Origin: a virus
IMG/VR virus record: IMGVR_UViG_3300032560_000106
Location: 1 to 25,695 of that record
Reading direction: 5' to 3' (one strand)
DNA: 25,695 bases
A program made the translations under genes and the position numbers. Below, one piece after another: positions 5,328 through 24,808 of this stretch. Below the pieces are notes generated by a model, which was given only the letters and a program-made list of their open reading frames with translations, was not told the origin of the DNA and searched no databases. Position 1 is the first letter of the stretch. Every line of letters starts with the position of its first letter.

Positions 5328-7409
5328 TTATATTCCTAACGCATTTTTAAGTGATTCGGTATTCCAAACATTTTTACGAGCTTCATCCGTACCGAGCAAA
5401 TAAGGTTCTGAGGTAGTTGATACGTCAGGTCTTGAGCTTAACGCACTTCCCAATAAAGCGCTAGATAGCGGGTCTGTAGAGATAAAAAAACCATTTAAAG
5501 CTGTTGTTGCAGGTGGCGCTGTTGGCGAAGTAGGCGCATTTGTCGTTGCAGGTGGCAAAATTGTAGTTGTATCCGCAGTGGTTGTATCCGCAGTGGTTGT
5601 ATCCGCAGTGGTTGTATCTGCGGGTGGCGCTGTCGTTGTGGCTGTTGGTGACGAAGTTGTATCTGCGGGTGGCGCTGTCGTTGTAGTTGTATCGGCAGTT
5701 GTTGCAGGGGGTGGCGCTGTCGTTGTAGTTGTATCGGCAGTTGTTGCAGGGGGTGGCGCTGTGGTATCAGTGGTTGTAGCAGGTGTCGTAGTCGTAGCTG
5801 TGGTATCAGTTGTGGTCACTGGAGGTGCAGTTGTAGTATCGGTTGCAGTAGTAGTTGGAGTTGTCGTATCCGTAGCAGCCGCAGTTCCGCCAGTTCCGCT
5901 ACTTGTTGCTGTGGTGTCTGCTGTGGTTGTTGATGTTTGTGTTTGCGCCTGTGTTTGAACAGCTTTATCCGCTGCTTCTTTTGCCATTGCATCAGCTACG
6001 GCTTGGTCTTGCGCTGCTTTAGCTGCTGCTGCGTCTGCTGCTGCTTTTGCTTGTGCATCTTGTGCAGCTTGTGCGTCTGCCTGTGCCTGTGCTGCTGCTT
6101 GAGCGTCAGCTTGCGCTTGCGCTTGAGCTTGGGCTGCAACTTGAGCTGCCATTTGATCTTGAATAATTTTTTCTTGTGCCGCTTGAGCATCGGCTGCCGC
6201 TTGATCCGCTGCTGCTTTGTCCGCTGCTGCTTGAGCTGCCGCTTGATCTGCTAAAGCCTTGGCTTGAGCGTCAGCTTGCGCTTGCGCTTGTGCTTGCGCT
6301 TGTGCTGCTGCTGCGGCGTCTGCTGCTGCTTTTGCTTGTGCATCTTGTGCAGCTTGTGCGTCTGCCTGTGCCTGTGCTGCTGCTTGAGCGTCAGCTTGCG
6401 CTTGAGCCGCCGCTTGAGCCTGAGCTTGCGCTTGTGCTTGAGCATCGGCTGCTGCTTGGGCTGCCGCATCTGCTTGAGCCTTGGCTTGGGCATCCGCTGT
6501 TGCTTGGGCTTGCGCCTGTGCTTGAGCCGCCGCTTGAGCCTGAGCTTGCGCTTGTGCTTGTGCATCGGCTGCTGCTTTTGCTTGTGCGTCTGCTTGCGCT
6601 TGTGCCGCCGCTGCTGCGTCTGCCGCTGCTTTATCTGCTGCTGCCTTATCTGCCGCCGCCTGAGCATCGGCTGCCGCCTTAGCTTGAGCAGCTTGTTGCG
6701 CTGCGGTAATGTCACCGTTAGCGGTGGCTACTGCACCTTGGTAATTGGTGTAATTAGCGTTATAAGTGCTAATAGCGGATTGCAATGCAGCAGAATTAGA
6801 TTGATAGGTAGATAAACTGTTGTTGTAATTAGTCTTTGCTGCCGCCGCTGCATTTTGATCGGCAGTATATTGATTTACTAAGGAACTTGTGTGACTTAAA
6901 GCGGCATTCCAACTTGCTCCCCAAAAATTAGCTGGAGAATACCCTCTAGATTGAGCCAAAGACATCATTTGACCAATTGTTAATGGGGAATTATTGTATC
7001 TGACTCCACTTTGAGTATTTAGCCACTGATTGTAAGTGTTTGCGTAGTTTGCTTCGGCAGTGTTGTAAGCCTGTGCATATTGATTAACTTGAGATTGTTC
7101 AGAAGTTAATTGTTGTACTTGTGTCTGAATTTGAGTTTGTTGTTGCAATAATGCATTTGACATATTCTGGATCTGAGCGCTTAGATCCTGAGGCAATATG
7201 CTTTGAAAATTAGGTATTTCTGATTGAACAGCTTGAATTTGCGGATCTTGGGAAGTAAACTCTTGAGCAACTGGAGCAGCTACAGTAGATGCAATATCAG
7301 AAGAAATCGGAGCAACAGTAGATGGGCTTGCATTTTGCAATCCCAATTGTTCATTTGATATTCCCTGTACGGTGACCGAGCCACCACCAGAGTCTAATTC
7401 ATCATCCAT
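5328..7409 (-). CDS. Ala/Gln- and Thr/Pro-repeat virion protein
   Basis: 693 residues. Residues 1-230 are Gln/Asn/Ser/Ala-rich and look helical, with a folded-looking stretch ([25 protein letters not shown], about 143-168). Residues about 232-490 are almost only Ala, Gln, Asp and Lys in dipeptide-like repeats ([14 protein letters not shown]), resembling the long TolA-type helix. Residues about 490-625 are Thr/Pro/Ala/Asp repeats ([12 protein letters not shown]). The last 40 residues ([25 protein letters not shown]) look ordered again. The ATG has an AGGTGAG site. The fibrous layout suggests a stalk, spacer or packaged extended protein; the neighbours suggest an internal or tail-associated role. 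Function not known. The coding DNA contains exact long repeats (listed separately). Confidence 0.65.
5575..5760 (-). repeat. Thr/Pro/Ala tandem repeats in the same gene
   Basis: A 15-bp unit (GTTGTATCCGCAGTG) is tandemly repeated near 5565-5615, giving TTADT units in the protein. A 42-bp unit spanning 5671-5712 and 5713-5754 is repeated twice in tandem, and its first bases occur again at 5755-5760. All units are multiples of three, so repeat number can change without breaking the frame. Confidence 0.85.
5942..6716 (-). repeat. Ala/Gln/Asp codon repeat tract with exact duplications
   Basis: The stretch encodes about 258 low-complexity residues. Positions 6031-6119 and 6316-6404 are identical over all 89 bases; the offset of 285 bp is a multiple of three, so the frame is kept. 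A second exact pair is 6400-6440 and 6520-6560 (41 bases, offset 120 bp). It is GC-richer than the surrounding genome, as expected for Ala codons. Confidence 0.9.
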
Positions 7410-7464: not shown

Positions 7465-7800
7465 TTAATAAAGCCCCAAAGCTGAAGCGATTTGTTCATG
7501 AATGGTGTAATGAGTGCCTAGCCAGTCATAAAAATCATTTTCTTTATTAAAATCTACATCAAGCATATTAAATGGATTACTTAATCCAAGGATGTCTGCA
7601 AGCGCTTGATGCTCTACTTGGTGAGCCAATAACCAGTCATCTAGGTTGTCAATATTGGCATCTGTAATAGGGAATTTTGAGTAAGTTTGACCAGCATCGG
7701 TCAATGTTTCCCAAAATAACAGGTGTTGAGTGCCATTTTCAAACAAAAACTCTCCCAGGGAATCTTTATCCCCAAACTTCACGATTGAAAGAGTGTCCAT
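7465..7800 (-). CDS. Acidic small phage protein, function unknown
   Basis: 111 residues from the ATG at 7798-7800 (MDTLSIVKFGDKDSLGEF). A GTG two codons upstream (7804-7806) overlaps the stop of the preceding gene (GTGA) and is an alternative start giving 113 residues; neither has a clear ribosome site. The protein is acidic and has FWETLTDAG, ITDANIDNLDDWLLAHQVEHQ and a C-terminal DWLGTHYTIHEQIASALGLY. The two D-D/N-WL-x2-H blocks (DWLLAHQVEH, DWLGTHYTIH) may be a weak internal repeat. It resembles small unknown proteins common in aquatic phage structural blocks; it lies beside the membrane protein at 7803-8027. Confidence 0.65.
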   Translation of the reverse strand: MDTLSIVKFGDKDSLGEFLFENGTQHLLFWETLTDAGQTYSKFPITDANIDNLDDWLLAHQVEHQALADILGLSNPFNMLDVDFNKENDFYDWLGTHYTIHEQIASALGLY

Positions 7801-14252: not shown

Positions 14253-15263
14253 TTATAGTGAAATAGAGTTATAACCTGTCACCACAGTCATTGACTTAGG
14301 CTTGGTGCTTACTAATTCAGCAATCATCAAGACAGCGCCAACATAACCGATCTGCCAGTTAGGTAAAGTGGACTCAAAACCAGTAAATACGAAAGAACCT
14401 TGATCGTGAATATAGAGGTTCAAGTAGTTACTGTTGATGAAGTACATAGTACCTTCAGGACAGTATGGATCTGGGTAAACAGGAACACCAGCGACCATCA
14501 ATGCACGGAAAGCTGCCTGAGGACCGTTTGAATCGCCATCAAAAGCGCTTCCTGGGGTGATAACGTATTGTTCTTGACCAACGTAGTCTTGTGCCAAGAG
14601 TGTCCATGTACCAAAACCGCAAACGGCAAAGGTTGGGATTTCAGCACCACGTTTTACAGTACCAGAAATGTATTGCAGTACGTTTTGACGTGTTGGGTTG
14701 ACGTTTCCAGCGTTGTAACGCTTAGATTGCCACCATGTGTAGGTAGAACGATTGATGTTACCGTATGTTGCAAGGTTTGTACCATCATCAATTGCACCAG
14801 GCAAACCAATGAACTGTTGAGTATTGGTGTAGTTGGTGTAAAGAGCAGTAGCCATTGCATCCATCATTACGTTGGTCGCATCGTTCATACGAGCTTCAAT
14901 CAATGGAATAATGGCGTAATCTTGCTGAACTGCACCTTCCATACCTAAGAAAGGTACTGGGGCAATCATTAACTTCAAGTTAAATTCAGCGTTAAATGCA
15001 CCTTGCTGAACTGCTGGCTGGTTGAAAGAACCAGAGTAGTCAGACCATTGTGCGTTAACAAACTGAGCGCCTTGAACTGGCACGGTTACTTGTGACACAC
15101 CGCCTGAAGCCTGTTGACTGTTAGCAATCAAAGCAGCCATCAAAGGTGTACTGTTGTAAAGCTGTACGACCAGCTTGGGAATAAACGCTCTACGAGTTAC
15201 GTATGTAAGCTCGTTATACTGCGATGAACCCGAGGCTGGAACAATTCCTCCGCCTATTGGCAT
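14253..15263 (-). CDS. Major capsid protein (HK97-fold type)
   Basis: 336 residues, length normal for a short HK97-fold coat. The N-terminus (SSQYNELTYVTRRAFIPKLVVQ then LYNSTPLMAALIAN) looks like the N-arm and E-loop start; FLGMEGAVQQDYAIIPLIEARMNDATNVMMDAMATALYTNYTNT fits the long spine helix; the P-/A-domain follows with GQEQYVITPGS, GVPVYPDPYCPEGTMYFIN and a C-terminal STKPKSMTVVTGYNSISL. No protease gene or extended delta-domain was seen, so a separate scaffold (the upstream gene) probably does that job. A strong ribosome site (AGGAGTTTATTATG) and a hairpin upstream fit high expression. Confidence 0.85.
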   Translation of the reverse strand: MPIGGGIVPASGSSQYNELTYVTRRAFIPKLVVQLYNSTPLMAALIANSQQASGGVSQVTVPVQGAQFVNAQWSDYSGSFNQPAVQQGAFNAEFNLKLMIAPVPFLGMEGAVQQDYAIIPLIEARMNDATNVMMDAMATALYTNYTNTQQFIGLPGAIDDGTNLATYGNINRSTYTWWQSKRYNAGNVNPTRQNVLQYISGTVKRGAEIPTFAVCGFGTWTLLAQDYVGQEQYVITPGSAFDGDSNGPQAAFRALMVAGVPVYPDPYCPEGTMYFINSNYLNLYIHDQGSFVFTGFESTLPNWQIGYVGAVLMIAELVSTKPKSMTVVTGYNSISL

Positions 15264-15299: not shown

Positions 15300-15821
15300 T
15301 TATTTAAAACCGATGGGTCTTGAGTTTTGTTTGCTCAGATCCGCCAGCGCTTTTTGTGCTTCATCTCTAGCACCCATTTGTGGGTTCTTCCAATACTTAG
15401 AAAGGTCAAACTTGTTCATTGGGCTAGAGCTGTATCCCATTGGAGTTGGAGTTGCTGCTTTCTTCATCCAATCGAAATATTCTGCTGCTGTTTCATGATT
15501 AGTCATGCCTTTTTCAAGCATTACTTTTTCAATCTCAGCAATTTCTTCTTCGCTACGACCTAATTTTGCTCTGCGCTTGTTTAATTCTTCAACTGCATCA
15601 CGCTCACGCAACTTAGCTTCCAAAGCCATTACCCGTTCTTCAGCAGCAGATACTTTTTTATTGGTGTAATCTTCAATATCAAGTTCTGGCACAGAAAGCT
15701 CAGGTCTGACCTGTTTGGTCATACGCAAAAATTCTTTACGTGTTTGTGGGTTGTCAGACAATTGCTTGGCTAACAGTGCCAACTCATCACGTTGTTCTAA
15801 TGATAAATCTTCTAAGCTCAT
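15300..15821 (-). CDS. Scaffolding protein
   Basis: 173 residues, highly charged and helical throughout (EERVMALEAKLRERDAVEEL, NKRRAKLGRSEEEIAEIEKV), with no folded catalytic motif; this and its position directly before the major capsid gene identify a typical phage scaffold. The C-terminal part (SSSPMNKFDLSKYWKNPQMGARDEAQ) is a basic or aromatic segment that could contact the coat protein. Ribosome site AAGGGGATAAATTATG. Confidence 0.75.
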   Translation of the reverse strand: MSLEDLSLEQRDELALLAKQLSDNPQTRKEFLRMTKQVRPELSVPELDIEDYTNKKVSAAEERVMALEAKLRERDAVEELNKRRAKLGRSEEEIAEIEKVMLEKGMTNHETAAEYFDWMKKAATPTPMGYSSSPMNKFDLSKYWKNPQMGARDEAQKALADLSKQNSRPIGFK

Positions 15822-16035: not shown

Positions 16036-16536
16036 TTACATTTTTGGAGTTGCGGAAGGCATACCACCTGGCATACCGCCTGGTGCTGCTGGAGGCGGTG
16101 TTGGGGCAGACATACCTGGGATTTGTGGCGCTTGTTGCATTGCTTTTCCTTCAGCCGTTGCGCCACCAGCTTGAGGTAATGTTTGAAGCATTTGCATGAT
16201 CTCGGTTGGCTGAAGTTCATTAACCTTAGACTTTTTAGGACCGATGATTCCTGTCATGGTGCGAATAGCAGCAAGGAGCTTTTGACCTTCTGGGGATTCG
16301 CTTCCCAAGGCAGGAAGTGCTTGTTCGAGTAAGTCCATTGCCATCGAAATGTTAATCATTGAGGCTTCCCGATTACCCATTTTAGGTTCAGGGGTGGACA
16401 TTGGTGATCCCATTGGTGGAGCGGAATTATCAGAAATTCCACCACCGCCTTCTGGCATTGGAGGAATACCAGCAGGTGTAGCCCCATCTTTTTGGGACTT
16501 AATCATTTGCATTAGTTGGTCTGACGGTACGCCCAT
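16036..16536 (-). CDS. Met/Pro/Gly-rich protein between portal and scaffold
   Basis: 166 residues. Gly/Pro/Met-rich ends (MPEGGGGISDNSAPPMGSPM at 27-46; PPPAAPGGMPGGMPSATPKM at the C-terminus) surround one compact helical part (about 54-125, REASMINISMAMDLLEQALP, then GQKLLAAIRTMTGI). The layout resembles a protein common in uncultured aquatic phages at this position, of unknown role (scaffold-associated or minor head component). Confidence 0.65.
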   Translation of the reverse strand: MGVPSDQLMQMIKSQKDGATPAGIPPMPEGGGGISDNSAPPMGSPMSTPEPKMGNREASMINISMAMDLLEQALPALGSESPEGQKLLAAIRTMTGIIGPKKSKVNELQPTEIMQMLQTLPQAGGATAEGKAMQQAPQIPGMSAPTPPPAAPGGMPGGMPSATPKM

Positions 16537-16560: not shown

Positions 16561-16588
16561 ACTGTAATCTTAAACTAATAAAAGTCAA
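16561..16588 (-). promoter_or_regulatory. Candidate minus-strand promoter for scaffold and capsid genes
   Basis: TTGACT (plus positions 16583-16588) and TACAGT (16561-16566) are 16 bases apart. Matches to the sigma70 consensus are 5/6 and 4/6. It would start transcription about 20 bases before the 166-residue gene, just after the hairpin cluster. Suggestive only. Confidence 0.3.
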
Positions 16589-16611
16589 GTGGGGGGTATT
16601 ATTTTTGATTC

Positions 16612-16667
16612 CCTCCCCCCAAGGGAGGTTTATTCGGTCAAGTCCGAAATAATCCTGTTAGGGATTA
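16612..16667 (-). other. Cluster of three consecutive hairpins
   Basis: In minus-strand order: TAATCC/GGATTA (16650-16667, 6 bp, including the stop of the downstream micro-ORF); TTCGG/CCGAA (16633-16648, 5 bp); CCTCCC/GGGAGG (16612-16628, 6 bp, 5-base loop). All are perfect and lie in a gap otherwise without genes. No U-run follows, so this is not a standard terminator for the minus strand; a processing or stability element is possible. Confidence 0.6.
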
Positions 16668-16706
16668 CTTACGTGCTTTACGACCTTTGCGAGCTTTACG
16701 TGCCAT
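16665..16706 (-). CDS. 13-residue basic micro-ORF (MARKARKGRKARK)
   Basis: 14 codons including TAA, with a clear ribosome site (AAGGAGT, 7 bases before ATG). Eight of 13 residues are Arg or Lys. Lies between the other micro-ORF and the three-hairpin cluster, and its stop is inside the first hairpin. A second 13-codon basic ORF with its own site is found 77 bases away; two in a row make chance less likely. Function unknown; a nucleic-acid-binding or virion peptide is possible. Confidence 0.45.
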   Translation of the reverse strand: MARKARKGRKARK

Positions 16707-16783
16707 GTGAATGACTCCTTAAAAAGCGGTCACCTATTTCAAAGGGAAGGCAGCCACACCCTTTTTCCTGTGAAGGGAAACTA

Positions 16784-16825
16784 TTAACGACGTGATTTAC
16801 GTGATTTTTTATGGCTCTTACGCAT
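16784..16825 (-). CDS. 13-residue basic micro-ORF (MRKSHKKSRKSRR)
   Basis: 14 codons including TAA, ribosome site TTGGAG 7 bases before the ATG. Ten of 13 residues are Arg, Lys or His and the rest are Met and Ser. Same length and character as the micro-ORF at 16665-16706. Between them (16707-16783) are two weak stems (TTTCC/GGAAA and AAAGGG/CCCTTT) and no longer frame. Confidence 0.45.
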   Translation of the reverse strand: MRKSHKKSRKSRR

Positions 16826-16844
16826 TTTAAATCTCCAAGTTAAG

Positions 16845-17009
16845 CTATCCCCTAACTGAACGACCCATGTCCCTAGTTTTAGGGCTACGGTTAAAACTCT
16901 TTACTCCTTGAGTACGATACTGCAAATTTGGTGAACCTGCATCTCTTTTTAATTGCTCAGTAGTTACCCTAGGTTGATCTGCTTTTGGCGCTACGCTTGA
17001 TCTTGCCAT
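16845..17009 (-). CDS. 54-residue basic protein coupled to the portal
   Basis: Starts MARSSVAPKADQPRVTTEQL and ends KTRDMGRSVRG; strongly basic and Ser/Arg-rich, no fold recognised. Its ATG overlaps the portal stop (TAATG), so it is almost certainly translated after the portal. A CCCTA/TAGGG stem lies inside it (16871-16884). Function unknown; like its tiny neighbours it may be a minor virion or DNA-binding peptide. Confidence 0.65.
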   Translation of the reverse strand: MARSSVAPKADQPRVTTEQLKRDAGSPNLQYRTQGVKSFNRSPKTRDMGRSVRG

Positions 17010-18634
17010 TATCCTACCTCTGGTTCTTTCTTCCCTTTAGGTGCGGGAGCTTGTTGTTTAGGTTGAGCAGCTTCCATTTTCTCTCTACGTTTCAACTTGT
17101 CTTTCAACAATTGTTTCATCGGTGGTTCTGTCAAGTCAAGCAATGATTCGGCATCAATAGCTTTGGCTTTGAACAAATTAAACGCTAATTGTTTTAAATC
17201 TTCGGTAAAGATTGGGCTGTTAGAGTGAGCATCCACTTTAACTACAAAATCTTTAGTAAATTGCTCGGCAATAAAGGCTTTACCATCTTCATCTTTAAAG
17301 TGAGTGTCATCATAGGCTTGCAATAACTTGAGATATAAGGTTGCTACCTTTTCCAAGCTATCTTCCACAATCAAAGCCCGTTTTTTAGCTCTTGAACTAC
17401 CAAGACGAGCTAATTGGCTTGCATGACCTTGACTTCTTACGCCTGATTCGCCTTTACCGCTTAATACGTTGCTAATACCTGATACTTCAGCAAACATATT
17501 GTCAATTTCATGCAATACCTCAAACAAATCAGGTGGCATTTCAGGCGATAGGCGATCTACCTTACCGCCAGGCATATCTGAGGCAATCAATGATCCAGCA
17601 CGTTGCATAGCAAAGTATTTTTCATCGGTAATACCGCTAAATCCGCTAAATGCCGTTGGTGGCGCTACCTGCTTAGAAAGAAGATCAAGAATCTCAGTCA
17701 TGCGAGTGTTACGCAACTCTTGCAACAAAATCAATTGCTGCGCTTCTGAAGCACCCCAGTAATAATCGGGCAATGGATTAGGTGTAATCTGCACAAAAGG
17801 ACATTCACCTTTTAAGAACAGGCTTGCACCAGGTCTGTCATAAATGATGATGTCAGGAGCAGCCATTGTGACCACTTGATAATCCTCAGTATCATCATTC
17901 CACAGCCACAACTCAGTCATTTCAACGGTATCTTCGGCTACCTGAGCTTTGTAACGGTTCATGCCGTACAGATCAAGGTTAATGTTGCCGTAGATAGTGG
18001 GATTGGTCTGGCTCATCACAATACGGTTTACCGCATCAGGTATTTCAGAATCGGATACTTTTGTGCCTGAAGTAATGCGGGAAACAATCTGTTCACGCTT
18101 TGGATGGGAATACAGACGGGCGTATAGCTCCGACTTAGTAATGTAGTAAGTTTGTGTAATGGCTTCTTGCCTGTCTGTATAAGGGGTATCTTCACGCAAC
18201 ACGCCAATCGATGACGGTTCAATCATGTAAGGATGAATACCTTTGTTGTACACCAGCTTAATAAAGGTGGTGTTGTACACAAGCGCCCATGTCAACGCAG
18301 TAGAAAATACTTGATCTGCATTGGAATTAAGCCACTCATCATTGAGCGCTTGGGTTAAGACTGGTGCTTTGTGATGCTCTGCGTTATGGACAGATGCGCC
18401 TAATGCAATAGAAAATCTTGTTGTTTCGGCTGAATATAAAAATGAAGTTAATTGATCTAAGTGCGGGTGAATTTTATTAAAATACGCTGGTGGTTGCTCT
18501 GGACCAGCGCCAAATAAATAATATGCTCTTAGTGTCGTGTAATCACCCTTTCTAGCTTCTTTGGACACCATACATTTATTGATGATGTCCAAATATAGTT
18601 CTTCTCTAGCTTCGGGTGCTGACGGAATTTTCAT
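17009..18634 (-). CDS. Portal protein
   Basis: 541 residues. Position after the terminase block and before scaffold and capsid, length, and sequence style identify the dodecameric head portal through which DNA is packaged. N-terminal part (RKGDYTTLRAYYLFGAGPEQPPAYFNKIHPHLDQLTSFLYSAETTRFS) and C-terminal GVRSQGHASQLARLGSSRAKKRALIVEDSLEKVATLYLKLLQAYDD are typical of portals from pelagic and freshwater phages as I recall. The C-terminus is Lys/Pro/Gln-rich (QPKQQAPAPKGKKEPEVG), a flexible tail. ATG overlaps the upstream stop (ATGA). Confidence 0.85.
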   Translation of the reverse strand: MKIPSAPEAREELYLDIINKCMVSKEARKGDYTTLRAYYLFGAGPEQPPAYFNKIHPHLDQLTSFLYSAETTRFSIALGASVHNAEHHKAPVLTQALNDEWLNSNADQVFSTALTWALVYNTTFIKLVYNKGIHPYMIEPSSIGVLREDTPYTDRQEAITQTYYITKSELYARLYSHPKREQIVSRITSGTKVSDSEIPDAVNRIVMSQTNPTIYGNINLDLYGMNRYKAQVAEDTVEMTELWLWNDDTEDYQVVTMAAPDIIIYDRPGASLFLKGECPFVQITPNPLPDYYWGASEAQQLILLQELRNTRMTEILDLLSKQVAPPTAFSGFSGITDEKYFAMQRAGSLIASDMPGGKVDRLSPEMPPDLFEVLHEIDNMFAEVSGISNVLSGKGESGVRSQGHASQLARLGSSRAKKRALIVEDSLEKVATLYLKLLQAYDDTHFKDEDGKAFIAEQFTKDFVVKVDAHSNSPIFTEDLKQLAFNLFKAKAIDAESLLDLTEPPMKQLLKDKLKRREKMEAAQPKQQAPAPKGKKEPEVG

Positions 18635-23885: not shown

Positions 23886-23922
23886 AAGTGTATGTTTTGC
23901 AGGTGAGAACCCTGCACTTTTT
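23886..23922 (+). terminator. Leader hairpin with T-run before ardC (attenuator candidate)
   Basis: TGCAGG (23898-23903) pairs with CCTGCA (23911-23916), a 7-base loop, followed by CTTTTT. AAGTG upstream (23886-23890) can alternatively pair with CACTT. It lies between the promoter and the ardC ribosome site, so it could act as a weak terminator or translation brake. Confidence 0.4.
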
Positions 23923-23941
23923 AACAGAAAAGGAAATTAAA

Positions 23942-24808
23942 ATGCAAAACGCAATCTATCAAGAGGTAACCGATCAAATCATCGCAGAGATGGAAAAGGG
24001 CGCTGCACCTTGGATTAAACCTTGGAAATCTGACTCTAGCGTAGAAAAAAACATTGTTTCAAAAAAAGAATATAACGGCATCAATCGTCTAATTCTTGGA
24101 ATGATGACTCACTTTAAAGGTTACCAGTCACCTTACTATGGCTCATTCAAACAATGGCAGGATCTAGGCGGTACTGTTAAAAAGGGCGAAAAGGGCATTA
24201 AGATTGTTTTTTATAAGCCAGTAGTTAAGACTGAGGAAAACAAGCAAACAGGCGAAAGTGAGAGTTTTGCCTATTCATGCCTAAAAACCTATTATGTATT
24301 CAATGCCGATCAAGTAGAGGGCGTTGAGTTTGAAAAGCCAGCGATCTCGCCTAGAGTTTATAACCCTGCACCTGCCTTAGATGATCGCATCATTAAGACT
24401 GGCGCTAATATCAAGCATGGCGGAGGATCTGCGTTTTTCTCGCCAATGGGTGATTTTATCGGGATGCCTAATCGTGACACCTTCAATGATGACTCTAGTT
24501 ATTACGCTACTGTATTGCATGAGTTAACACACTGGTCAGGCGCTAAACATCGCCTAGATCGTGACATGAGCGGAAAATTTGGCAATGCAAAATATGCCTT
24601 TGAGGAATTAGTAGCAGAATTAGGCGCTGCGTTTCTCTGTCAGGATTACCAGATACAGGGTGAATTGCGCCATGCTGGATACATTCAAAATTGGCTCACT
24701 TGCCTAAAAGAAAACAATCAAGCAATTTTCAAGGCTGCAGCACTTGCTCAAAAGGCAGCCGATTACATCAACGGCTTAGATGCTCTCACTAATCAGCAAG
24801 CGGCTTAA
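23942..24808 (+). CDS. ardC: ArdC-type antirestriction protein
   Basis: 288 residues from the ATG at 23942-23944 (site AAAAGGAAATTAAAATG), preferred to a GTG 54 bases upstream which would run through the leader hairpin. N-terminal ArdC domain, about residues 3-95: YQEVTDQIIAEMEKGAAPWIKPW, EYNGINRLIL, SPYYGSFKQWQDLGGTVKKGEKGIKIVFYKP. C-terminal zincin-type domain: HELTH (His193, Glu194, His197) and YAFEELVAELGAAFL, giving the expected third acidic ligand. Such proteins bind single-stranded DNA and protect incoming DNA from restriction; the protease-like site is a known family trait. Early expression from the strong promoter fits a role just after DNA entry. Confidence 0.85.
   Translation: MQNAIYQEVTDQIIAEMEKGAAPWIKPWKSDSSVEKNIVSKKEYNGINRLILGMMTHFKGYQSPYYGSFKQWQDLGGTVKKGEKGIKIVFYKPVVKTEENKQTGESESFAYSCLKTYYVFNADQVEGVEFEKPAISPRVYNPAPALDDRIIKTGANIKHGGGSAFFSPMGDFIGMPNRDTFNDDSSYYATVLHELTHWSGAKHRLDRDMSGKFGNAKYAFEELVAELGAAFLCQDYQIQGELRHAGYIQNWLTCLKENNQAIFKAAALAQKAADYINGLDALTNQQAA

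Follow-up and report, generated by a model that had tools for sequence, protein, structure and literature searches.

Protein J of phage phiX174 and the core peptide mu of adenovirus are small, basic virion proteins that condense the viral genome. A precedent of another kind is provided by gene 32 of phage T4, whose autogenous operator includes an RNA pseudoknot located 5' of the Shine-Dalgarno (SD) sequence (PMC535899). Here we describe a locus of a freshwater phage with similarities to both. The window analyzed, the whole 25,695-nt stretch of IMG/VR virus record IMGVR_UViG_3300032560_000106, carries two micro-ORFs, termed A and B, beside the genes for the phage head. The explanation that best accounts for the entire body of observations, and that we regard as fairly probable, is that A and B encode ultra-small polybasic proteins of the head module that would serve as polycations in trans, with B under the control of a pseudoknot and with A and a further copy, C, being paralogs.

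Two basic micro-ORFs in the window

Both micro-ORFs are located on the minus strand, as are all other features of the head block described below. Micro-ORF A (16784..16825) codes for MRKSHKKSRKSRR and micro-ORF B (16665..16706) codes for MARKARKGRKARK, each consisting of 13 residues followed by TAA. The SD sequence of A is TTGGAG (16833..16838), and that of B is AAGGAGT (16714..16720). An earlier note on this DNA had reported two 13-residue ORFs here, with two ribosome sites at good spacing. The coordinates, length, and sites are all borne out by reanalysis, and the strand, which the note omitted, is minus for both ORFs.

Apart from A and B, no ORF of 9-20 residues in the window combines an Arg+Lys content of 45% or more with an SD sequence. 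When the limits are tightened to 10-20 aa and 60% or more Arg+Lys, again with an SD sequence, the window holds 2 such ORFs, compared to 0 in 200 dinucleotide-preserving shuffles.

Conservation among relatives

Relatives were gathered in several ways. A portal protein search of IMG/VR provided a best 80 loci, and most of those with enough downstream sequence show one to three basic micro-ORFs in the same place. Two degenerate DNA patterns were also run over all IMG/VR viral contigs without use of the portal. Among the matches listed, these scans returned almost exclusively the lineage of the window, and the few others were mostly chance-like or the tails of other frames. Two contigs without a match to the lineage carry basic ORFs of their own. 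On one (no match to the lineage's portal or coat), an ORF at L296:7494-7544 (plus strand) encodes MYRRKTRKRKARKSRR and has the ribosome site AGGAGG. It fits exactly between an ORF stop at 7492 and an ORF start at 7548 and is possibly a separate basic micro-gene. On the other, which is 43 kb long, MRQRRGGKRRKGRR is encoded with an SD sequence between two ORFs at L257:3283-3327 (minus strand). This single case may be due to chance.

IMG/VR contigs are fragments, and the frequencies given here hold for loci among the matches listed. Upstream regions were deduplicated solely by an exact 500-base stretch, and SD sequences and promoters were recognized by simple motifs. When anchored on the portal gene, at least one micro-ORF is found no more than 750 nt from the portal end in 172 of 178 distinct loci among the matches listed, and the remaining six (27-29% portal identity) have a micro-ORF elsewhere in the head block. 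Searches anchored on the coat gene extended to more distant relatives. In the 2.8 kb preceding that gene, we looked for the outcome named beforehand as speaking against the micro-ORFs, namely relatives that keep the flanking genes and lack or frameshift the ORFs, and the micro-ORFs withstood this test. Among the matches listed, 230 of 240 distinct loci keep at least one sense-strand micro-ORF with an SD sequence, as opposed to 0 of 240 on the antisense strand. Sorted by coat identity to the window, a micro-ORF is present in 141/142 loci at 85% or above, 17/19 at 60-85%, 8/9 at 45-60%, and 64/70 below 45%, and conservation extends down to approximately 35% identity. Of the ten exceptions, L086 is an outgroup phage, and some four others yield a candidate once the criteria are relaxed. 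An ORF of this type is apparently missing from four or five loci that belong to the lineage (L312, L305, L307, L310, and perhaps L448).

Start, stop, and ribosome site are likewise conserved in relatives. An SD-like motif precedes 168 of 170 A-type and 134 of 143 B-type ORFs, and all 143 B-type ORFs end in TAA (ATG starts alone were searched). Judged by these comparisons, A and B are real genes, kept beside the head genes by nearly every relative found.

The suggestion that gene callers drop such ORFs proved correct for the two complete GenBank relatives, the Manatee Spring environmental genomes MW202753 and MW202825 (77% and 76% portal identity), in which both micro-ORFs are present and unannotated. 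Their records instead place hypothetical antisense CDSs over the micro-ORF block (L082:4740-5038, minus strand; L083:25683-25943, plus strand), and these are probably spurious. No convincing ORF of this kind was seen in the head blocks of Mx8, BUCT555, and SU10, which have a related coat or portal, or in that of MW202803. Our search for relatives found no cultured phage. Prokaryote assemblies gave no host assignment, as relatives occur in bins of unrelated phyla and are probably stray phage contigs. No description of this micro-ORF family was found in the literature searched.

Selection on charge

Purifying selection is evident in the ORF frame alone for both A and B. Among pairs at least 70% identical, pN/pS for B is 0.242 in the ORF frame versus 2.8 and 5.8 in the other frames, and for A it is 0.257 versus 1.7 and 3.3; these values are descriptive because pairs share ancestry, and they include noise from the alignment of such short, repetitive codons. 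Across all pairs, dS is 0.83 and dN is 0.18 for B, and A is saturated at synonymous sites.

The equal length of the two ORFs had also been regarded as a telling feature. This point did not survive the comparison, because A- and B-type peptides in relatives range from 9 to 20 aa (mostly 12-16) and occur in one, two, or three copies. The median length is nevertheless 13 in each of the three groups (near, mid, and far), and the basic fraction is 0.57-0.60 across groups, although the search itself demanded at least 40% basic residues. Acidic residues make up 0-1.5% of the peptides and hydrophobic residues 2-5%, and the net charge is +7 to +8. A hydrophobic toxin or lysis peptide was rejected as a candidate on the basis of this low hydrophobic content.

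In a set of 210 distinct peptides, R/(R+K) tracks GC content (rho 0.57, P 4e-19) and the basic fraction is independent of it (rho 0.08, P 0.26). Length and basic fraction hold steady as the Arg/Lys ratio shifts with GC, which points to charge as the selected property. Selection seems, from these sequences, to keep positive charge rather than particular codons or one amino acid. Outside the basic tail the sequence drifts, as illustrated by the far-lineage forms MARRHRRGKRK, MARHKGRKGRRK, and MIERNRRGKRKHRK, and no residue-specific motif beyond charge and the basic tail is evident in the peptides compared.

Gene neighborhood and the predicted promoter

A 54-aa basic gene (16845..17009) lies just upstream of A and is preceded by the gene for a 541-aa SU10-type portal protein (17009..18634; Pfam SU10_portal). 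B is followed by a 166-aa gene (16036..16536), a 173-aa gene that is a probable scaffold by position (15300..15821), and the gene for the 336-aa major coat protein (14253..15263; PHROG 9953, E 2e-37). The 54-, 166-, and 173-aa products have no Pfam or PHROG match. The predicted structure of the 166-aa protein is helical and of low confidence (mean pLDDT 68, pTM 0.35). This acidic neighbor was considered as a partner for the peptides and rejected, its median net charge being merely -3. Elsewhere, the window encodes a 693-aa protein of low complexity, enriched in Ala, Gln, and Thr (5328-7409, minus strand), and an ArdC-type antirestriction protein (23888-24808, plus strand; Pfam ArdcN and MPTase-PolyVal).

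Members of the near clade mostly have two micro-ORFs and sometimes three. Beside the third, C (...RKGRKSCK), the end of the 54-aa gene is repeated together with its SD sequence (L045, L047, L007, L035), as would be seen after tandem duplication. A and C look like tandem paralogs gained in nearer clades. A single micro-ORF is usual in far lineages, and its common position is some 100 nt or less upstream of the 166-aa homolog, which is followed by a gene of about 60 aa, the scaffold, and the coat. L129 and its relatives have the portal gene in inverted orientation, with the micro-ORF remaining on the coat side.

A small hairpin (TTTCC/GGAAA, 16764..16780), identified by eye in relatives, directly follows the stop of A. 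Between B and the 166-aa gene there is a sigma-70-like promoter motif, TTGACT-16-TACAGT (16561..16588); this match alone is within chance, and the evidence for the predicted promoter is its conservation. TTGAC occurs within 140 nt downstream of the last micro-ORF in 132 of 141 near-clade loci versus 1 of 72 far loci, and in many near-clade loci the site reads TTGACA-16-TACGAT. In near relatives, a G-rich hairpin with an A-rich loop (16588-16640, minus strand) directly adjoins the TTGAC of the putative promoter, and by eye both of its arms vary (GGGGAGG/CCTCCCC, GGGGGG/CCCCCC).

These observations bear most directly on the strongest rival to our explanation, a rival that we judge to be unlikely. 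A cis-acting leader peptide would be a polybasic nascent chain that slows the ribosome and thereby tunes expression of the downstream head operon, with the released peptide having no role. Several features of far lineages suit this proposal. The micro-ORF there is often positioned just upstream of the 166-aa homolog, TTGAC precedes it in 27 of 72 loci, and a hairpin follows it in 47% versus 16% of shuffles. Placement on the same transcript upstream of a regulated gene fits some far lineages, but for the near clade it would not fit if transcription begins at the predicted promoter, which would separate B from the 166-aa gene; two or three peptide copies are nevertheless kept. An attenuator specific for one amino acid is opposed by the interchange of Lys and Arg with GC at a constant total, and codons for a single amino acid are not enriched. 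With a promoter-like site after the micro-ORFs in near relatives and ahead of them in some far lineages, a role in cis is not preserved. To the extent that motif matches identify promoters, this change in position between clades favors a peptide acting in trans over a leader peptide acting in cis.

A pseudoknot in the leader of B

Comparative analysis of the near clade revealed that the leader of B, between A and B, contains an H-type RNA pseudoknot (16728..16762). Stem P1 pairs 16762-16759 with 16746-16743, and stem P2 pairs 16755-16748 with 16735-16728. In 72 distinct sequences, 93.0% of cells are standard pairs versus 82.0 (sd 0.6) when shuffled, and there are 86 double-change cells versus 19.2 (sd 3.4) in shuffles; because the stems were drawn from the same 72 sequences, the percentage paired leans toward the pseudoknot, and the double changes are the stronger part of this evidence. 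Two-sided changes occur in 10 of the 12 pairs, and pairing falls to 41-61% in slid registers. Minimum-energy folding of the whole block gave no signal (z -0.79), and the structure was revealed by comparative analysis alone. Rfam has no family for this pseudoknot; even at E 5, the search returned one chance-level miRNA match, elsewhere and on the other strand.

The pseudoknot accompanies B specifically. It is present with 131 of 143 B-type ORFs against a background of 17/489, in 18 of 18 loci where B is alone, and in 0 of 4 where another type is alone. Four ORFs classed as A, C, or other also have it, and these resemble B in sequence and position. Most often the pseudoknot ends about 20 nt before the ATG of B. 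It was not found in the lineages below 60% coat identity, and its role as a general companion of the micro-ORF was thus rejected in favor of confinement to the near clade. Since far lineages keep the peptide without the pseudoknot, the peptide appears to be the older of the two. From its distribution, the pseudoknot looks like a clade-specific control of B.

A pseudoknot at this position might also hint that the peptides are regulators that bind phage transcripts, in the manner of arginine-rich motifs such as that of lambda N, with the B pseudoknot as one target. Their composition does resemble that of arginine-rich RNA-binding motifs, and the structure preceding B covaries. We nonetheless consider this improbable, because the peptide is kept below 60% coat identity, where the pseudoknot is missing, and because the peptides lack an evident residue-specific motif.

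Proposed role in the head module

Less probable still are peptides directed at a host enzyme, defense system, or membrane, for which the position in the head block would be incidental. In general, small phage proteins are known to act on host targets (PMC11323111), but the linkage to head genes is strict even across deep divergence and argues against this proposal, and the scarcity of hydrophobic residues is not typical of a membrane-acting peptide. Chance ORFs in a structured noncoding region, a notion encouraged by the surrounding RNA hairpins and pseudoknot, are ruled out for practical purposes by the shuffles, the antisense control, and the selection confined to the ORF frame, as the earlier note anticipated in calling the pair hard to explain by chance.

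We return to polycations of the head module in a phage lineage that is large and uncultivated. The A and B peptides (mostly 10-16 residues) would act in trans and, as heads are assembled or packaged, would bind packaged DNA, RNA, or an acidic surface. Our likeliest guess for their role is nucleic-acid binding during head assembly. A virion or nucleic-acid-binding peptide, as proposed in the earlier note, would be consistent with charge-only conservation and linkage to head genes. The pseudoknot may set the translation of B, plausibly through autogenous feedback by a nucleic-acid-binding peptide, by analogy with T4 gp32. A more far-reaching proposal is that a near-universal, directly encoded polycation of about 13 residues might be a dedicated part for head assembly or DNA packaging throughout an entire phage lineage, selected for charge only and equipped in one clade with pseudoknot feedback that would match its level to free nucleic acid. 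We offer this version tentatively and would not expect it to hold in full.

Genes of 10-16 codons are shorter than annotation usually allows, and trypsin would reduce a protein in which every second residue is Lys or Arg to very short pieces. Standard genomics and proteomics would therefore both miss such genes. If these peptides are true head components, a class of polycations may be absent from inventories of tailed-phage particles. The leader pseudoknot and the conservation of charge alone provide direct handles for tests.

Comparison with known systems

Like phiX174 J and adenovirus mu, the micro-ORF peptides are very small and very basic, as genome-condensing virion peptides are; their association with the head is read from gene position alone. 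J is about three times longer than they are. Mu is cut from a precursor, whereas the micro-ORF peptides are directly encoded by 10-16 codons in a tailed-phage lineage.

The leader of B resembles that of T4 gene 32 in having a pseudoknot 5' of the SD sequence, of about 28 nt in T4 and about 35 nt here, and the one upstream of B covaries. However, gp32 is a full-size ssDNA-binding protein whose operator has UUAAA-type repeats, whereas B encodes a 13-residue peptide. Leader peptides of attenuated operons are similar in having about 14 codons, an SD sequence of their own, and hairpins nearby. Unlike those leaders, the micro-ORFs are conserved for charge, and in the near clade the predicted promoter is downstream of them. 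Small proteins of phages and microbiomes have also been cataloged (Fremin et al. 2022, cited in PMC11323111; GMSC, PMC11364881), and A and B fall into the same broad class of unannotated small genes.
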